Positions 19,566 through 30,807 of a stretch of DNA of 64,000 nucleotides are shown one piece after another. Each line of letters opens with the position of its first letter. Position 1 is the stretch's first letter. The position numbers and the translations under genes are program-made. The stretch is from an uncultured bacterium (lineage in GTDB: Bacteria > Planctomycetota > UBA1135 > UBA2386). The notes below the pieces were generated by a model. It did no database searches and had not been told where the DNA came from. It saw only the letters and a program-made list of their open reading frames with translations. The stretch lies in NCBI GenBank assembly GCA_937906475.1, contig CALCZA010000026.1:1-64000 (forward strand), in the 5' to 3' direction.

Positions 19566-20195
19566 GTGCCTGTCGCCCTTGGGTCGTCCGTGCAGGAGGA
19601 CAGTTGGCGCTCGATACGTCGGTGGCATTTGTTTGGGCTGCTGGCGCCAATCACCTTAGGAAGCCTTCTCGGAGTCGTTGAGTGGTTCGGCTACGGCAGT
19701 TTGTCCTCGGACTTTCTGCTTGGCATCGGCGCGGTGATTGCCTTTGGCGTGATGATGCTCAGCGCGCTGTCGATGCCGTTTGTGCGGCGAAGTGGCGGCC
19801 ATGCGACGCTGTGGGGTGCAATTGCCTTGGTGGCGTGCATGGTCGGGATTCGGTTGCAAGGTATTGGCCGGGTCTGGGGGCTTGCCAGTTGCGCCGAGAA
19901 TGCCAAGCCACTGATTGCAGCCATCGATAAATACCTAGCCGATCACGGTCAGGCACCCGTCGGACTATGGGATCTCGTGCCCGTCTACCTCGATCACGTC
20001 CCGGGCACGGGCTTGTCGCGCTATCCCAAGTGGGACTATGGCATGGCGAACGGTGAGCCCTACGAGTTGTTGGTCAACTGCTCGCTCTTCCTGAGCTTTG
20101 ACTCGTTCGTCTACTGGCCTAGCGGCAACTACCCGCAGCACCTCTACGGCGGTTCTGTCGAGCGCATGGGCGTGTGGGCTTACGTGCACGAATAG
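19566..20195 (+). CDS. Hypothetical membrane protein
   Basis: GTG start just after smc; several hydrophobic segments (LFGLLAPITLGSLLGVVEW; LGIGAVIAFGVMMLSALSM). Confidence 0.6.
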   Translation: MPVALGSSVQEDSWRSIRRWHLFGLLAPITLGSLLGVVEWFGYGSLSSDFLLGIGAVIAFGVMMLSALSMPFVRRSGGHATLWGAIALVACMVGIRLQGIGRVWGLASCAENAKPLIAAIDKYLADHGQAPVGLWDLVPVYLDHVPGTGLSRYPKWDYGMANGEPYELLVNCSLFLSFDSFVYWPSGNYPQHLYGGSVERMGVWAYVHE

Positions 20196-20563
20196 CGGCG
20201 TTAGCGAAGTCTCAACGCCTGCAGGCGTGCTGGCCATGGGGTCAAACTCGGCCAACTGCTCTTTGAATATCACTGTGCGGGCGTTCTGTTGCTCGTGCAG
20301 GTTCTGCAGTTCAGCCAGTCGTTTGTTCAGTACATCCTTCAGCGTGCGCAAGCGAACGAACTCGGACGGTGATGCAAAGCCATGCACGGTCAGCGACGCG
20401 ACCCGATCCGCTTCGACCTCGGCGCGCGTTGCTAGTGCCGTCAGGCGAGCCGACGCGACGTTGGCGGTGCGGCGGCGGCGTTCGATCGTGGTTTTGGCAA
20501 GGTTCCATATTGCCGAAGCGACCGGTCGTTGCCGCCGACTGCCGGAACTGGCACGCTTTTGCT

Positions 20564-22894
20564 ATGCGTAGGATTCTGCTGACGCTCGTGTTCGCCAGTT
20601 GCGTTGCCTCCCCGCGATTCGAAGTCAAACGCTTCGAACCGATTGTTCCGGACCTTGCTGAGTTCGCCAGTCGGCATCAAATCGAGATGGGGGTGCCCGG
20701 GGTTTGGATCGCACTGCTCGAAGTGGACTCGGATACTGGCGAAGAACACCTATGGGCGAGAACGTTTGGTGGCGCTGTCAACTCAGCCTTCGGTGCGACC
20801 TCGTTGGTGTCGGCGCCGAATGACCTGGATGTGCTCGCAACGCATCGCATCGCTTCGATCAGCAAGCTATTCACTGATACCGCGGCGATGGTGTTGGTCG
20901 AGCGCGGGTTGCTAGATCTGGACGAACCGATCAAGACCTACCTGCCGACGTTCGCGCCGAAAAATCCGTTCGGCAAGCCGGTGACGCTACGCAACTTGAT
21001 GGGTCACCGCGCGGGCATCGTGCGGGAGTCGCCGGTCGGCCACTACTTCGATCCATCCGAGCCATCGTTGTCGGCGACGGTTGCGAGTCTCAACGACACC
21101 GAGTTGGTTGCCGAACCGGGATTGACCTACAAATATTCGAACCCTGGCATCGGAGTCGTCGGCGAAGTGATCGCGCAAGTGACCGGCAAGTCGTTTGAGG
21201 ATGCCGTGCGCGAACTCGTGTTGGCGCCGCTCGACTTGCACGATAGTGACTTCGCGCCACGCCCAGATCTGGTTGAGCGGCAAGCCGAAGGCATCATGTG
21301 GACCTACGACGGTCGCAAGATCCCGACCCCGAACTGGCGCTTTGGCTATACGCCGGCGGCGGAGTCGCGGAGCACGGTTGTCGACCTAGTTAAATTTGCC
21401 CGCAGTTGGTTTCCGGATGCCAAGCAACGCGTGCTCAACGTGAACGCGCAGCGAAGCATGTGGCAGTTGCCAGAAGGCAAGTCCAGCGGTTGTGGCTTGG
21501 GCTTCTTTGTTGGTCAGCTTGATGGCCATCTACGGGTGTCCCATGGCGGTGCGGTGTATGGCTTCGCCTCTACGTTGACCGCGCTTCCCGAGGTAGGCCT
21601 GGCCGTCTGTGTCGTCTGCACCAAGGACTTTGCCAATGACGTTTCCGGTGCGATTGCCGACCGAGCGCTGTTGGCAGCATTGGCTAATCGTCGGGGCGAA
21701 ACGTTGCCTAAAGCGGTGTTTCCGAAGCCGCTAGGAGTCGACGCGGCCCGGGCGCTGCAGGGGCGTTGGCAGATCGGCGACAACTGGGTGGAATTGCGCG
21801 AACGTGATGGCGATCTCTACTACGACCCGAACATTGGCGTGCGTACGCGCATGCGCCGCGCCGCCGACGGAACGTTGCTCGCCGATGATCCGTTGGCAAT
21901 CGGAGCAGCGCGGAGTTTGAAGCCATTGCCGAACGGCAACTTCCTCGATGCCGGTGGCGAATACGTTCGCAAAGACGATGTGCCGCTGCCGATGCCTGCA
22001 GAATTGGGCGATCTGCTCGGTGAGTATGGATGGGACCATAACGTGCTCGTGGTCTACGAAGATCACCAGAGGCTCGGCGTTTTGATTGAGTGGGTGGTGC
22101 GCGACTTGCCAGAACGTGAAGGCAAAGATCGCTATCGCTTCCCATTCGGCATGTACACCGCCGATCAATTGCTGTTCGAACGTGACGATAGCGGCCAAGT
22201 GATTGCTGCCGTCGTCGGTGGTGCCCGCTTCCCGCGACGTCCCGGCCCAACCGGCGGTACGTTCCGGATTCCCGTAGTGCATCCAGTTCCTGAGTTGCTC
22301 GCCGCTGCCAAGATCGCGAAGCCGCCAGCACAGCCCGAGGGCTTGCGCGCCTTTGATCTCGTTGACCTAGCGCAGTTGGATCCGACGATCAGGTTGGATA
22401 TTCGTTATGCGACCGACAACAACTTCCTCGGCGCCAAGGTCTATGACCAAGCGAAGGCCAAGATGCAAAAGCCAGCGGCGATGGCGTTGTTGCGCGCGCA
22501 TCGTGGGTTGGCAAAGCTTGGCCTTGGCCTGAAGATCTTTGACGCGTATCGGCCATGGTCCGTGACCAAGGTGTTCTGGGATGCGACGCCATCGCACTTG
22601 AAGCACTTCGTCGCAAACCCCGCCAATGGCTCGCGCCACAACCGCGGTTGTGCGGTCGACCTGACGCTCTACGATCTCGCGACTGGCAAAGAGCACGCAA
22701 TGCCGTCTGGCTACGACGAGTTCACTGCGCGGGCGTATCCCGACTACCCAGGCGGCACGTCACAGCAGCGCTACTACCGTGAGGTTCTGCGGCGGGCGAT
22801 GGAGGCACAGGGCTTCGCCGTCTACGAGCACGAGTGGTGGCACTACGACTTCGCGGAGTGGCGGGCCTACCCGATCGGCAACGTGCCCTTCTAG
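20564..22894 (+). CDS. Fusion: serine beta-lactamase-family (class C/PBP-like) domain plus VanX-type D-Ala-D-Ala dipeptidase (M15D) domain
   Basis: Lipoprotein-like N-terminus MRRILLTLVFASC; SISKLF (SxxK), YKYSNPG (YxN), HGG; C-terminus IRLDIRYATDNNFLG, DAYRPWSV, SRHNRGCAVDLTL, YEHEWWHYDF. Confidence 0.93.
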   Translation: MRRILLTLVFASCVASPRFEVKRFEPIVPDLAEFASRHQIEMGVPGVWIALLEVDSDTGEEHLWARTFGGAVNSAFGATSLVSAPNDLDVLATHRIASISKLFTDTAAMVLVERGLLDLDEPIKTYLPTFAPKNPFGKPVTLRNLMGHRAGIVRESPVGHYFDPSEPSLSATVASLNDTELVAEPGLTYKYSNPGIGVVGEVIAQVTGKSFEDAVRELVLAPLDLHDSDFAPRPDLVERQAEGIMWTYDGRKIPTPNWRFGYTPAAESRSTVVDLVKFARSWFPDAKQRVLNVNAQRSMWQLPEGKSSGCGLGFFVGQLDGHLRVSHGGAVYGFASTLTALPEVGLAVCVVCTKDFANDVSGAIADRALLAALANRRGETLPKAVFPKPLGVDAARALQGRWQIGDNWVELRERDGDLYYDPNIGVRTRMRRAADGTLLADDPLAIGAARSLKPLPNGNFLDAGGEYVRKDDVPLPMPAELGDLLGEYGWDHNVLVVYEDHQRLGVLIEWVVRDLPEREGKDRYRFPFGMYTADQLLFERDDSGQVIAAVVGGARFPRRPGPTGGTFRIPVVHPVPELLAAAKIAKPPAQPEGLRAFDLVDLAQLDPTIRLDIRYATDNNFLGAKVYDQAKAKMQKPAAMALLRAHRGLAKLGLGLKIFDAYRPWSVTKVFWDATPSHLKHFVANPANGSRHNRGCAVDLTLYDLATGKEHAMPSGYDEFTARAYPDYPGGTSQQRYYREVLRRAMEAQGFAVYEHEWWHYDFAEWRAYPIGNVPF

Positions 22895-24638: not shown

Positions 24639-26120
24639 ATGCGCGCCAACGCTTCGTTCTCGATCTCTCTGTCGATTCTGTCGGTAGCTGCCACCGCGAT
24701 CAGCCAAGAGCCGGAACGGCCGAACGTCATCGTTATCATTAGCGATGATCAGGGCTGGGCCGACATCGGCTACCACAATCCGAAGGTGTATTCGCCGCGC
24801 CTTGATGCGTTGGCTGCTGCCGGCGTCCAGTTCACGCAGCACTACGTGATGCCGCAGTGTACGCCGACGCGGGTCGCATTGATGACTGGGCGCTATCCAA
24901 GTCGCTTTGGACCTGGATCACAGCAGGCGAGCAACGCGCCGGCGTTCCCGATCGGAACACCGACGATGGCGTCGATGTTTACGGCGTGTGGCTATGAGAC
25001 TTACTTAGCTGGTAAGTGGCATCTTGGTTCGTCGAAGGAACACGGCCCCAATCAGCATGGCTTCCAGCACAGCTATGGTTCGCTAGCTGGTGCGATTGGC
25101 ATGTATGACCATCGCTACCGCACGGGCAAGTTCGCGGATACGTGGCATCGCGATGGCGACTTGATTGCAGGTGCTGAAAACGGTGTGCACGCAACCGATC
25201 TGTTGGCGCGCGAGGCGGTGCGCGTGATCGAGGCGGATCGCCAGCAACCGTTCTTCCTGTGTTTGACGTTCCAGTCGGTTCATACCCCGCTGGACGAGCG
25301 TGGTCGCTTCGTCGATCGGCCGACGCAGCTCGACCCCAAAGATCCCACCCGTTGGCTCGATGAAGATGAGATCGAGTGGTTCCACGATCCCAAGGGCTTG
25401 ATCCAGAGTGAGCAGGACCCGGAGAAGCGGTTGTTACTTGCCGCCGTGCACCACATGGACCATGCGGTTGGCCAAGTGATCGACGCCGTGAAAAAATCCG
25501 GCAGGGCGCAGGACACGTTGATCTTGTTCTCGTCGGACAACGGGCCGCAGGGCAGTTGGGGTGGCAACGCCTACCCGGATGACTTGAAGCTCACCGACTT
25601 CAATCAACCGCTGCCCATGCGTGGCAAGAAGACCGACGTCTACGAAGGTGGCATGCACGTTCCCGGCTTCGCCGTGTGGCCCGGCCACATCGAACCGAGA
25701 CAAGATGGCTCTGCGGTGCACATCATCGATTGGTTTCCGACGTTGGCTCGGTTGATTGGCTACGAGCCTAGTCAGCCACTCGACTGGGATGGCGTCGACA
25801 TTGGCAAGCAGATGTTTGGAGACGCGACTGCGACTGATCGGGCTGCCGACCGGGAACTGTATTGGCTGTGGAGCGCCTCAAGCAGTCGCTGGGCACTACG
25901 TCACGGTCGTTGGAAGATCGTTCGATATGGCAAGGGCGATCCGAAGGATGCCAACGCGTGGCAGCTGTTTGATCTGGACACAGACCCGATGGAGGAACAC
26001 AACGTCGCCAAACAACACTCTGACGTGTTGCAGGCGATGTATGCGCGCTTCTTGGTGCAGCGCAGCAAGGACAAGGTGCAGCGCAAGAAGGGCAAGAAGG
26101 GCAAGGGCGGCAAGCGCTAG
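24639..26120 (+). CDS. Sulfatase (arylsulfatase family), secreted
   Basis: PNVIVIISDDQGWADIGYHNP, CTPTRVALMTGRYPSRFG formylglycine motif, GKWHLGSS, DNGPQGSWGGN. Confidence 0.96.
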   Translation: MRANASFSISLSILSVAATAISQEPERPNVIVIISDDQGWADIGYHNPKVYSPRLDALAAAGVQFTQHYVMPQCTPTRVALMTGRYPSRFGPGSQQASNAPAFPIGTPTMASMFTACGYETYLAGKWHLGSSKEHGPNQHGFQHSYGSLAGAIGMYDHRYRTGKFADTWHRDGDLIAGAENGVHATDLLAREAVRVIEADRQQPFFLCLTFQSVHTPLDERGRFVDRPTQLDPKDPTRWLDEDEIEWFHDPKGLIQSEQDPEKRLLLAAVHHMDHAVGQVIDAVKKSGRAQDTLILFSSDNGPQGSWGGNAYPDDLKLTDFNQPLPMRGKKTDVYEGGMHVPGFAVWPGHIEPRQDGSAVHIIDWFPTLARLIGYEPSQPLDWDGVDIGKQMFGDATATDRAADRELYWLWSASSSRWALRHGRWKIVRYGKGDPKDANAWQLFDLDTDPMEEHNVAKQHSDVLQAMYARFLVQRSKDKVQRKKGKKGKGGKR

Positions 26121-26126
26121 GGGCCG

Positions 26127-27569
26127 TTATCGAGGCGTCTCGAGTGGTTGCACGAGCTGGTAGGTCTTGTCGTAGAACTTGCGATTGAACGCCGACCACA
26201 TCACCGCGCTCGACCACATTGGCGGCCGTTCGTGCGATTCTTCCCACCGGGTCAGCACCGCCATCAGTTCGGTTACACGTTGCGGCTGTTCGGCCGCGAG
26301 ATTCTGCTGCTCGGCGATGTCGGTCTGCAGGTTGTAGAGCTGCGGCGGTGCGAACGGTGTCCGCACGAGTTTCCACTCTGCCTGACGCACCGCGGCGCCG
26401 CGCATCATCATGCGCCAACATAGCGATTCGTGCGGCGCGCCTTGTTGTTGCTTCGAGCCGAAGAACGGCAGCAAGTTGACGCCATCATAAATGCGCTGTT
26501 TCCGCCCTCGGCCGTTGCCGATGGTCTCTGGTTCGATGGCGCTACCAGCTGCTGCCAGCACGGTCGGCAAGATGTCGAGCGAGATGACGGGTTGCTGGTA
26601 GGTCTGCTGGGGTTCGATGTGGCCCGGCCACGACCAGATCATCGGCACGCGCAAGCCACCTTCGAGGAACGTGCCCTTCTCGCCGCGTAGCGGTGCGTTG
26701 ATCGCCGAACTGGCGTAGACCGAGCCACCATTGTCGCTGAGGAAGACGATCAACGTGTCCTTGGTTAGCTTGCGGTTGGCGAGGAACTGTCGGATGCGGC
26801 CAATGTTCTGATCCATGCAATGCTGCATGGCCACGTAGTTGCGACGCCGCTTGTTCTCGATGTGATCCGCGGCGTCGTAGTCTTGCTGCTTCGCCTGCAT
26901 CGGCGCGTGCGGTGTGTTGTAGCTCAGGTAGACGAACCACGGTTGCTTACTCTGCTTAGCTTCGTGGCGTTCGATGAACGCGATCGACTCGGTCGTGAAC
27001 CAGTCCGTCAGGTATGGCTCGTCGATTGCCTTGACCTTGTCGTCGTTGCGATACAACCGGTGCTTGTCTGGCGTTGGGAAGTAGCCATGGCTGCCGTTGC
27101 GCATGCCGAAGAAGTAGTCGAAGCCACGCTGGTTCGGCAGTTGCCAGTCGAGGTGTTCGCCGACGTGCCACTTGCCGATGCAAGCGGTCGCATAGCCAAG
27201 GTCGCTGAGTCGGTCGGCGATGGTTTGCTCGTCTTTTGGAATCGAAAGTGAGCCTTCGCTGTAGACCGAGGTATCGCTGATCAGATTATGTTCGAACCCG
27301 AATCGATTCTGGTAGCGACCAGTCAGTAAGCCCGCGCGCGAGGGTGCGCAAACGCTGGCGCTGACGTAACCATCGGTGCATCGTACTCCGGAAGCCGCCA
27401 GTGCATCGAGGTTGGGCGTTGCGATCTGCTTGCTGCCATAGCAGCCAAGATCGCCGTAGCCCATGTCGTCGGCGACGATCACTAGCACGTTCGGTGGACC
27501 TTGTGCCGCTAGGGCGGCGGTTGCCGAGAGCACGGCAAGCATGGCGCGAACGACGAGGCTGGGCTGCAT
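26127..27569 (-). CDS. Sulfatase (arylsulfatase family), secreted
   Basis: PNVLVIVADDMGYGDLGCYG, CAPSRAGLLTGRYQNRFG, GKWHVGEH, LSDNGGSVYASS. Confidence 0.96.
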   Translation of the reverse strand: MQPSLVVRAMLAVLSATAALAAQGPPNVLVIVADDMGYGDLGCYGSKQIATPNLDALAASGVRCTDGYVSASVCAPSRAGLLTGRYQNRFGFEHNLISDTSVYSEGSLSIPKDEQTIADRLSDLGYATACIGKWHVGEHLDWQLPNQRGFDYFFGMRNGSHGYFPTPDKHRLYRNDDKVKAIDEPYLTDWFTTESIAFIERHEAKQSKQPWFVYLSYNTPHAPMQAKQQDYDAADHIENKRRRNYVAMQHCMDQNIGRIRQFLANRKLTKDTLIVFLSDNGGSVYASSAINAPLRGEKGTFLEGGLRVPMIWSWPGHIEPQQTYQQPVISLDILPTVLAAAGSAIEPETIGNGRGRKQRIYDGVNLLPFFGSKQQQGAPHESLCWRMMMRGAAVRQAEWKLVRTPFAPPQLYNLQTDIAEQQNLAAEQPQRVTELMAVLTRWEESHERPPMWSSAVMWSAFNRKFYDKTYQLVQPLETPR

Positions 27570-27741: not shown

Positions 27742-30700
27742 ATGCTGACGCTACGACTGCTGTTGCTCGTGCTTGTCTCCGCGGGATTTGCCTCTGCGCA
27801 AACTAAGGCCCGGCCAAACATTGTCTGGTTGGTTGCCGAAGACATGAGTCCATGGCTCGGTTGCTATGGCGACACCACGGTGCCTACGCCGAATTGCGAC
27901 CGGTTGGCCCGCGAGGGCATTCGCTATGCGAACGCGTTTGCGACGTCGCCGGTCTGTGCGCCGGCGCGCTCGTCGCTGATCACTGGGATGTATGCAACGC
28001 GCATCGGCACCATGCAGATGCGCAATAACAAGCCGAGCAAGGCCGCGGTTGAGAAAGACCCTGACGCGTACAAGGAGATCCCAGGTTACGAGGGGGTTCC
28101 GCCAGCGTTCGTGCGCTGCTTCCCGGAGTTGTTGCGGAAGCAGGGCTACTACTGCACGAACAACGCAAAAAAAGACTACCAGTTTCAGGAGCCATCGACG
28201 GTCTGGGACCAGTCGAACGGCAAGGCGCATTGGCGCGGCAGGGCTGCAGGTCAGCCGTTCTTCGCCGTCTTCAACTATGGCGGCACGCACGAGAGCGGTG
28301 CGTTCCCTTCCCGCAAGCCAAGCCCTGACGCGGTCGCGGTCGAGGACGTGCCCGTCCCGCCGATCTATCCTGATACCAAGAACGTGCGCGCGGCGATGAA
28401 GCGCACCTACGACAACATCGCAGCCATGGACCGCTGGGTCGGCAAGAAGCTAAAGGATTTGGAGGAGGCAGGTCTGCTCGACCGTACGGTCGTGATGTAT
28501 TACAGCGACCATGGCGTTGGCTTGCCGCGCGGCAAGCGTTCGTGCTACGACACTGGCACGCGGGTGCCACTGATGGTGCGCTTCCCTGATCAACGTCGCG
28601 CTGGCGAGACGGAAAAGCGCGTGGTGCAGTTTGTCGACTTCGGTCCGACAGTCCTCTCATTATGTGGCGTCAATCCGGACTCGCGACTCGATGGCATACC
28701 GTTCTTAGGTAAGCATCGCCGCAACGGTACGGGGTATGCCTATAGCCACTCCGACCGCTTTGACGCGGTCTACGATCGTCAACGCAGCGTTACCGACGGC
28801 AGGTTCCGTTACGTTCGCAACTACATCACCGACCAGCCCTATTTGATCGCCAACGCCTACCGCGAGCGGATTCCGATGACGGCGGACCTCTACGCGCTGC
28901 GCGGCCGCCGCGATGTCCCTGCGGCCCAGTGGCAGTTCGCGGTCACGGATAGGCCAGTAGAAGAACTCTACGACTCCCAGATGGATCCTTGGGAGACCAA
29001 CAACCTGATCCATCGGCCGCTAGCCGGAATAGTCGTCGAGGGCTTGCGTGAGCGCCTCGATGATTGGATCGAGGATACCGGCGATCTGGGCTTCGTCTTG
29101 CCGGAGTCTAGGTTGGTGCGTGAGCACATTTGGCCGCCAGATGGTAAGCAACCGACGACGCCGAAGGCCGAGATGCGGCAGGCGGCGGGTGCGATCGCCA
29201 GCGTCGTGACCTTGTCCTGTAAGGAACCGGGCGCATCGATTGGTTATCGGGTGCTACCTGCTAAGAAGAACGCGCCGTGGACTGTCTACAGCAAGCCGTT
29301 TGTGGTTCGTGAAAGCCAGCGCATCGAAGTCGTTACCCATCGCATTGGCTGGCGGCGCAACACCGCGCGCTTCGAGGTCGCGCCGCACAAGCGCCAGCAG
29401 GTGAAAGCGCGCGCCGACGCGCCCAATGTCGTCGTCATCGTCGCCGATGACCTTGGCTTCATGGACATTGGGGCCAACAACCCGAACTGTCTCTACGACA
29501 CGCCCAACATCGATCGCCTGTCGCGCTCGGCGATGCGATTCACGAACGGCTACGCGGCCTGCTCAGTGTGTTCGCCGACGCGCTACGCGTTGATGACTGG
29601 TCGCTACCCGTCGCGTGTCGATGCGACCAACTACTTCATGGGTAGGCGGGCAGCCAAGTTCAAGCCGGCACTGGCCAGTGACCGTATGGAGATCGATGAA
29701 CGCACCATCGCCGAGGAACTTGGTGACCGCGGTTATGCGACGTTCTTTGCCGGCAAGTGGCACCTCGGTCCGACGGCCGAATACTGGCCGAAGAACCAAG
29801 GCTTCGACGTCAATCGCGGCGGTTTCCATCGCGGCGGTCCCTACGGCGGCAAAAAGTACTTCTCGCCCTATGGCAACCCGCGACTGAAGGATGGTCCCGA
29901 TGGGGAGCACTTGCCAGCCCGATTAGCGCAGGAAGCGTGCGACTTCATTGAGCAGAACAAGGACGGTGCCTTCCTGACCTACCTGTCGTTCTATTCGGTG
30001 CATACGCCGTTGATTGGTCGCAAGGATCTGATCGAGAAATACAAGCAACGCATCGCCGCACTGCCCGACGACGGTTCGCCAGAGTTTGGTCCCGAAGAAC
30101 AGTCCTACAACAACGGCAAGCCACGTCGGGTGCGATTGCAGCAGCGACACGCGGTCTATGCCGCGATGGTGGAGGCCATGGATCAGGCCGTCGGCAAGGT
30201 GCTCGACAAGTTGGCGGCGCTCGGTCTCGATGACAATACGATCGTCGTATTCACGTCGGACAACGGCGGCCTGTCGACGAGTGAAGGTTCGCCAACCAGC
30301 AACTTACCGCTGCGTGGCGGCAAGGGTTGGATGTACGAGGGCGGCATTCGCGAGCCGTGGATTTGGCGCGTGCCTGGCGTGACCAAGGCCGGCACGACGT
30401 GTGCCGTGCCGATGAGCAGCGTCGACTTGTTGCCAACAGTGTTGGAGTTGACTGGCCATCGAGCGGCGTCGCAAGAAATCGATGGGGTCAGCATTGCCTC
30501 GCCGCTGCGCGCGCAGCCAATGCCCGAGCGGGCGCTGTTCTGGCACTATCCGCACTACGGCAACCAGGGCGGCTTCCCGAGTGGCGCGATTCGTTTAGGT
30601 CAGTGGAAGTTGATCGAGCGACTCGAAGATGGCCGCGTGCACTTGTTTGATCTTGCCAACGACATCAGTGAACAGAGCGACCTTGCCAAGGACCAACCAG

Positions 30701-30807
30701 AACGCGTCGCGAAGTTGCGTGACATGCTGCACGCGTGGTATCGCAAGATGGATGCGAAGTTCCTGCGCGAGCACAAGGGCGCGGTCCCGTGGCGGCCTAA
30801 GAACTAG
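27742..30807 (+). CDS. Tandem double sulfatase (two complete sulfatase domains in one polypeptide)
   Basis: Domain 1 PNIVWLVAEDMSPWLGCYGD + CAPARSSLITGMY; linker with possible CHB_HEX_C-like fold; domain 2 PNVVVIVADDLGFMDIGANN + CSPTRYALMTGRYPSR + GKWHLGPT. Confidence 0.95.
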   Translation: MLTLRLLLLVLVSAGFASAQTKARPNIVWLVAEDMSPWLGCYGDTTVPTPNCDRLAREGIRYANAFATSPVCAPARSSLITGMYATRIGTMQMRNNKPSKAAVEKDPDAYKEIPGYEGVPPAFVRCFPELLRKQGYYCTNNAKKDYQFQEPSTVWDQSNGKAHWRGRAAGQPFFAVFNYGGTHESGAFPSRKPSPDAVAVEDVPVPPIYPDTKNVRAAMKRTYDNIAAMDRWVGKKLKDLEEAGLLDRTVVMYYSDHGVGLPRGKRSCYDTGTRVPLMVRFPDQRRAGETEKRVVQFVDFGPTVLSLCGVNPDSRLDGIPFLGKHRRNGTGYAYSHSDRFDAVYDRQRSVTDGRFRYVRNYITDQPYLIANAYRERIPMTADLYALRGRRDVPAAQWQFAVTDRPVEELYDSQMDPWETNNLIHRPLAGIVVEGLRERLDDWIEDTGDLGFVLPESRLVREHIWPPDGKQPTTPKAEMRQAAGAIASVVTLSCKEPGASIGYRVLPAKKNAPWTVYSKPFVVRESQRIEVVTHRIGWRRNTARFEVAPHKRQQVKARADAPNVVVIVADDLGFMDIGANNPNCLYDTPNIDRLSRSAMRFTNGYAACSVCSPTRYALMTGRYPSRVDATNYFMGRRAAKFKPALASDRMEIDERTIAEELGDRGYATFFAGKWHLGPTAEYWPKNQGFDVNRGGFHRGGPYGGKKYFSPYGNPRLKDGPDGEHLPARLAQEACDFIEQNKDGAFLTYLSFYSVHTPLIGRKDLIEKYKQRIAALPDDGSPEFGPEEQSYNNGKPRRVRLQQRHAVYAAMVEAMDQAVGKVLDKLAALGLDDNTIVVFTSDNGGLSTSEGSPTSNLPLRGGKGWMYEGGIREPWIWRVPGVTKAGTTCAVPMSSVDLLPTVLELTGHRAASQEIDGVSIASPLRAQPMPERALFWHYPHYGNQGGFPSGAIRLGQWKLIERLEDGRVHLFDLANDISEQSDLAKDQPERVAKLRDMLHAWYRKMDAKFLREHKGAVPWRPKN

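Follow-up and report, generated by a model that had tools for sequence, protein, structure and literature searches.

In a 64,000-nucleotide stretch of DNA from an uncultured bacterium (hereafter the window), a single gene encodes a serine hydrolase domain of family S12 and a zinc dipeptidase domain of family M15D, with two complete sets of catalytic residues and an export signal on one chain. The phylum is probably Planctomycetota, because sister families carry PSCyt1, PSCyt2, and PSD1 domains; PF07596 was uninformative as a marker of the phylum, with none of the control genomes giving a hit. The fusion is conserved, and genes for D-amino-acid catabolism recur next to it in relatives. On this basis, we consider it reasonably probable that the protein is an exported two-enzyme peptidase for D-amino-acid peptides, chiefly peptidoglycan fragments, and that it serves feeding rather than antibiotic resistance. 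Both domains belong to known families, and neither half reaches the equivalog cutoff of a characterized enzyme. Their combination is common in its phylum, is not characterized in any of the papers searched, and has a function that is suggested by context.

The fusion protein and its catalytic residues

The gene (positions 20564 to 22894, plus strand) is a single uninterrupted frame that runs from an ATG at 20564 to a stop at 22894 and encodes 776 amino acids in the order S12-MIDa-MIDb-M15D, an arrangement supported by the frame, by Pfam matches, and by orthologues. An alternative in-frame GTG lies upstream at 20369, but the ATG at 20564 was preferred because the hydrophobic signal of the homologues begins at the same place. 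This N-terminal signal, shared by homologues, makes it likely that the protein is exported, as the initial annotation had proposed. The signal sequence includes a candidate lipobox (20564 to 20602, plus strand; TLVFASC) in which Cys13 follows a short hydrophobic stretch (LVFASC), and relatives in the window's family (f1) have LAGC, LVGC, LAAC, and similar motifs there. The position of the cysteine is kept in the alignment of family f1, and the residue at position -3, Phe, is atypical. Lipidation at this candidate Cys13 would anchor the protein to the membrane in the window's lineage. Homologues from another family, f32, have signal peptides that look ordinary rather than lipobox-type.

The S12 domain (PF00144; residues 94 to 371, positions 20843 to 21676, plus strand) was recognized with a Pfam score of 177 bits against a cutoff of 27 (E value, 6.3e-52). 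Alignment of homologues placed the SxxK motif at S98-I-S-K101 (20855 to 20866), the YxN motif at Y191-S-N193 (21134 to 21142), and an HxG motif, H327-G-G329 (21542 to 21550), in place of KTG, all on the plus strand. The third motif was HxG in 52 of 52 aligned sequences, whereas class C beta-lactamases have KTG, and the NCBIfam class C beta-lactamase model gave the window protein 50.8 bits against a cutoff of 415. Thus, the initial assignment of this domain to class C beta-lactamases was not upheld.

Among solved structures, the top match of the S12 domain was 7spn, the thermophilic esterase IS11, followed by Pab87 (2qmi; E value, 5e-23); ClbP and a D-amino-acid amidase were also among the matches. 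Pab87, which has the motifs SxxK/YxN/HxG, takes D-Ala off the pentapeptide of a muropeptide, and of the two p-nitroanilides of Ala it favors the D form (PMC2651629). This CubicO-type S12 enzyme of Pyrococcus abyssi resembles the window protein in these motifs, in the sequence of the S12 domain, and in having a beta-rich domain behind the catalytic domain, and by analogy the likeness may extend to D-stereospecific peptidase activity and a peptide-metabolism gene context. Pab87 carries a lipocalin domain, a type to which MIDa might also belong, and it lacks M15. AmpH was among the best NCBIfam matches, and enzymes of the AmpH/PBP4B type likewise have an envelope S12 domain; however, they lack M15, and the window protein scores far below their cutoffs (71 versus 266 and 25 versus 385, respectively).

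The approximately 200 residues that separate S12 from M15D consist of two beta-rich segments that have no Pfam match and are conserved in homologues, MIDa (residues 392 to 475, positions 21737 to 21988, plus strand) and MIDb (residues 479 to 572, positions 21998 to 22279, plus strand). MIDb was also found fused to M15D in proteins without an S12 domain. The strands of both segments come from a low-confidence whole-protein model (mean pLDDT, 54; few input sequences) in which the M15 domain, at approximately 75 to 97, was the sole well-predicted part; the model does not support the S12 fold, the MID folds, or the mutual placement of the active sites.

The M15D domain (PF01427; residues 597 to 764, positions 22352 to 22855, plus strand) scored 109 bits against a Pfam cutoff of 27 (E value, 4.7e-31). 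The roles of the zinc ligands, the catalytic Glu, and the catalytic Arg of VanX are established, and in an alignment with VanX (1r44; E value, 3e-18) and in the homologue alignment, the counterparts of all of these residues were identified on the plus strand: R663 (DAYRP; 22550 to 22552), matching the catalytic Arg; the zinc ligands H692 and D699 (SRHNRGCAVD; 22637 to 22660); and the catalytic E757 with the zinc ligand H760 (EWWH; 22832 to 22843). This alignment excludes a loss of the zinc ligands. The predicted fold also matched 1r44 (TM score, 0.78 by target length; 30% identity in the fold alignment). With both Pfam domains recognized and their motifs intact, the earlier reading of one polypeptide that joins an S12 enzyme to a complete M15D zinc dipeptidase was confirmed, as were its coordinates.

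The known substrate of DdpX/VanX-kind enzymes is D-Ala-D-Ala. The M15 part alone had its highest NCBIfam score with the DdpX-type model (PRK10178; 147.3 bits), under the equivalog cutoff of 176, and scored 95.5 bits with the dipept_VanX model, under the cutoff of 320. The proposed D-Ala-D-Ala dipeptidase activity fits the VanX fold and residues but is putative, with scores below both equivalog cutoffs. In Escherichia coli, ddpX is induced approximately 100-fold by nitrogen depletion, and a D-Ala-D-Ala transporter is encoded in the same operon (PMC8743547). DdpX thus shares with the window domain the zinc/Glu/Arg set and the highest NCBIfam score, along with a nutrient-scavenging context, but it is a stand-alone enzyme paired with a dipeptide importer, whereas the window domain is fused and predicted to be exported. 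VanX is a zinc-dependent D-Ala-D-Ala dipeptidase, and VanY accepts the pentapeptide but not dipeptides (PMC6403190). Despite its common fold and catalytic residues, VanX is a stand-alone resistance enzyme, and there is no van cluster at the window fusion.

Distribution and ancestry of the fusion

A search for PF00144 plus PF01427, which the initial annotation had suggested in order to learn how widespread the architecture is, showed that it is common within the phylum; none of the openly licensed papers searched describes an S12-M15D protein. A fusion with both S12 and M15 parts was present in 21 of 34 genomes sampled from family f1, where orthologues were 59 to 79% identical along nearly the whole length, far more than chance would give. 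Beyond f1, it occurs in six or more further families of the phylum. PF01427 itself was detected in 57 of 392 sampled genomes of the phylum. Intact S12-MID-M15 was found at 16 of the 30 PF01427 loci inspected, and at one further locus (L079) it was split across overlapping frames. VanX-type M15 domains in long frames, with S12 verified in part, were detected in family f32 (21 of 120 genomes) and family f72 (27 of 100 genomes), so that the distribution is patchy inside all three families. Outside the phylum, shallow searches returned M15 or MIDb-M15 forms only, and no relative was found among the viral contigs searched.

When 84 M15 domains were placed in a maximum likelihood tree, every one of the 53 fusions fell into a single group (support, 99/92), along with five MID-M15 proteins and one acidobacterial protein, and six state changes lay inside this group. 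The tree is compatible with a single fusion event followed by loss or splitting, which fits better than many separate fusions.

The catalytic residues are highly conserved. H692 and D699 were invariant in 52 aligned fusions, and R663, E757, and H760 were each present in 51 of 52. S98 was kept in 38 of the 39 fusions that cover the site, the other 13 of the 52 loci ending before it. At one locus (L017), the catalytic Ser of S12 is replaced by Ala (AIGK) and M15 is retained; at another (L026), the M15 residues are gone (AYQP, KWWQ) and S12 is retained. These losses indicate that each half can decay alone, and thus strict coupling of the halves is not required. Several f32 frames of approximately 1,130 to 1,200 amino acids (L108, L104, L106, L116, and L119) appear to hold a tandem pair of S12 domains before M15D; the double S12 was confirmed by Pfam in L108 (5953 to 9348, minus strand) only.

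Gene neighborhoods in relatives and in the window's genome

In the genomes of nine relatives (seven from f32 and two from f72), the fusion lies downstream of a DgcN-like DUF1611 gene (PF07755) and a DgcA-like epimerase gene of the MR_MLE type. DgcN and DgcA convert D-Glu to L-Glu (PMC10845958; PMC12363236). DgcN and DgcA were the best NCBIfam matches of these genes, both below the cutoffs (287 versus 480 and 216 versus 400, respectively). The genes were adjacent to the fusion at L102, L103, L105 to L108, and L133 and separated from it by one intervening gene at L104 and L120.

Eight f32 genomes had both a long-frame M15D and DUF1611, and in seven of the eight they were on the same strand within approximately 7.5 kb. 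The order DUF1611, MR_MLE, fusion was found in G284, G231, G540, G534, G385, and G510, and in G479 a gene for an S12 domain plus an amidohydrolase intervenes in the cluster. At L105, the epimerase was located by tblastn (67% identity), and the gene order is the same as at the other f32 loci. In the eighth genome (G453), the DUF1611-epimerase pair is on a different contig and is followed by a convergent gene. In f72, linkage was found in 2 of the 23 genomes having both genes: they are adjacent in G629, and in G407 an amidohydrolase-plus-S12 gene intervenes and a divergent XylR-type regulator is present. Family f17 provided an example of the parts as separate neighbors, with DUF1611 lying between a lone M15 gene, which follows it directly, and an S12 gene in divergent orientation (G176). 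A rough binomial estimate that ignores relatedness puts the probability that the linkage arose by chance at 1e-20 in f32 and 3e-4 in f72, and the linked f32 cases stem from two genera and may represent one inherited event each.

The intervening genes at L104 (7675 to 10428, plus strand) and L120 (8893 to 11742, plus strand) encode fusions of S12 with Amidohydro_3, which resembles N-acyl-D-amino-acid deacylases. They have opposite domain orders and occupy the same position in the DgcN-DgcA-fusion cluster of two families. At L099 (G184), a same-strand gene of 686 amino acids upstream of the fusion looks, by eye, like glucosamine-6-phosphate deaminase.

The best plasmid relative of MIDb-M15D is on plasmid 2 of Gemmatirosa kalamazoonensis (Gemmatimonadota), in a same-strand run of tricorn protease, S12, M19 dipeptidase, MIDb-M15D, amino-acid permease, and a D-aminoacylase-like gene. 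Here, S12 and M15D are separate proteins in one run, the pattern expected of fusion partners. Stand-alone M15D genes of Bacteroidales (L033 to L044) had no S12, epimerase, or DUF1611 neighbors, a context that neither supports nor opposes a catabolic role.

In the window, the fusion gene is preceded by SMC and a protein of no known family and followed by citrate synthase and sulfatases, and no recognizable operon surrounds it. The gene between SMC and the fusion (19566 to 20195, plus strand; 209 amino acids; no Pfam family) has a relative of similar size at the same place in G020 (L083). A tandem pair of sulfatase domains is encoded by the gene at 27742 to 30807 (plus strand; 1,021 amino acids), which is adjoined by two more sulfatase genes (24639 to 26120, plus strand; 26127 to 27569, minus strand). 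In the window's genome (G000, a draft assembly that is 94% complete), DUF1611 was absent and a clear DgcA-type epimerase was not found, so that the gene pair preceding the fusion in relatives is absent or unrecognizable in this genome. The same genome encodes a GH3 domain, beta-N-acetylhexosaminidase-like, fused to PF00144 (C133, 5566 to 6525; L129, 1 to 2514), another pairing of a wall-breakdown type. In both this protein and the S12-amidohydrolase fusions of relatives, the enzyme joined to S12 could plausibly act in degrading the wall or D-amino acids, but these partner domains differ from M15D. A 12-kb tandem array of paralogues, with approximately ten PF07969 amidohydrolase matches on one strand, lies at C90, 21679 to 33397.

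Proposed function and alternatives

The initial annotation had suggested peptidoglycan scavenging, a reading supported by the genes around the fusion in relatives and by the Gemmatirosa run. By analogy with Pab87 and AmpH-type enzymes, S12 most likely trims D-amino acids from peptide ends, and M15D would cleave small dipeptides of the D,D type (for example, D-Ala-D-Ala). The freed D-amino acids would then be imported and catabolized. We infer these substrates and this order of steps, as well as a site of action outside the cell, probably at a membrane anchor in the window's lineage, and that the window's own copy would act likewise without linked genes. It is not chemically obvious that S12 would supply D-Ala-D-Ala to M15D, because DD-carboxypeptidases release single D-Ala. 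The lack of DUF1611, a clear DgcA, or an operon in the window's genome speaks against scavenging, as do the infrequent linkage in f72, the presence of esterases such as IS11 among S12 enzymes, and the DgcN and DgcA matches under equivalog cutoffs.

Some of these features would also fit remodeling of the cell's own wall, with S12 as a DD-carboxypeptidase/endopeptidase, M15D clearing the small peptides released, and nutrition secondary. AmpH, an enzyme with both of these activities, is among the best matches of S12, export and a lipobox would put the protein at the envelope, and the fusion is conserved through f1, where no catabolic operon was seen. However, the informative contexts are catabolic (DgcN/DgcA, permease, and D-aminoacylase), and the patchy occurrence (21/34, 27/100, and 21/120 genomes in f1, f72, and f32) argues against a core role in wall building, which makes self-remodeling rather unlikely. 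The matches to IS11, ClbP, and D-amino-acid amidase, together with neighboring S12-Amidohydro_3 genes that resemble N-acyl-D-amino-acid deacylases, could instead indicate that S12 acts as an esterase or amidase on different compounds, D-configured or N-acylated, such as secondary metabolites or N-acyl-D-amino acids, and that the fusion handles N-acyl-D-peptides, not wall fragments. This seems quite improbable, given that the partner domain is of a kind that is known to act on D-Ala-D-Ala and that a D-peptidase, Pab87, carries the same motifs (PMC2651629).

A response to antibiotics, which the initial annotation had also raised, would have S12 hydrolyze beta-lactams and/or M15D deplete D-Ala-D-Ala in the manner of VanX. 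PF00144 and VanX-fold homology are in its favor, but the third motif is HxG, not KTG, and the scores fall short for class C (51 versus 415 bits) and VanX (95 versus 320). VanX acts on cytoplasmic D-Ala-D-Ala, whereas the fusion has an export signal, and the neighborhoods inspected showed neither a ligase gene nor any further gene of the van type. With motif, model scores, and gene context all opposed, and no resistance-gene link seen, antibiotic resistance is extremely unlikely and was rejected. Automatic labels of "beta-lactamase" or "VanX" on such genes should not be equated with antibiotic resistance.

If the fusion does serve feeding on D-amino-acid peptides, S12 and M15D would be predicted to share one substrate class. 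It is possible, though less likely than not, that the fusion is the outer-surface entry of a Planctomycetota-type D-amino-acid feeding pathway, with end-trimming and dipeptide-splitting on one anchored protein, and that it belongs, along with DgcN, DgcA, a permease, and the S12-D-aminoacylase fusions, to a system dedicated to eating the peptidoglycan peptides of other bacteria. D-Amino acids in wall fragments are a widespread, slowly degraded pool in the sea and in soil. If this proposal is right, a large polymer-degrading phylum would gain access to that pool through an exported enzyme with a few conserved genes around it.
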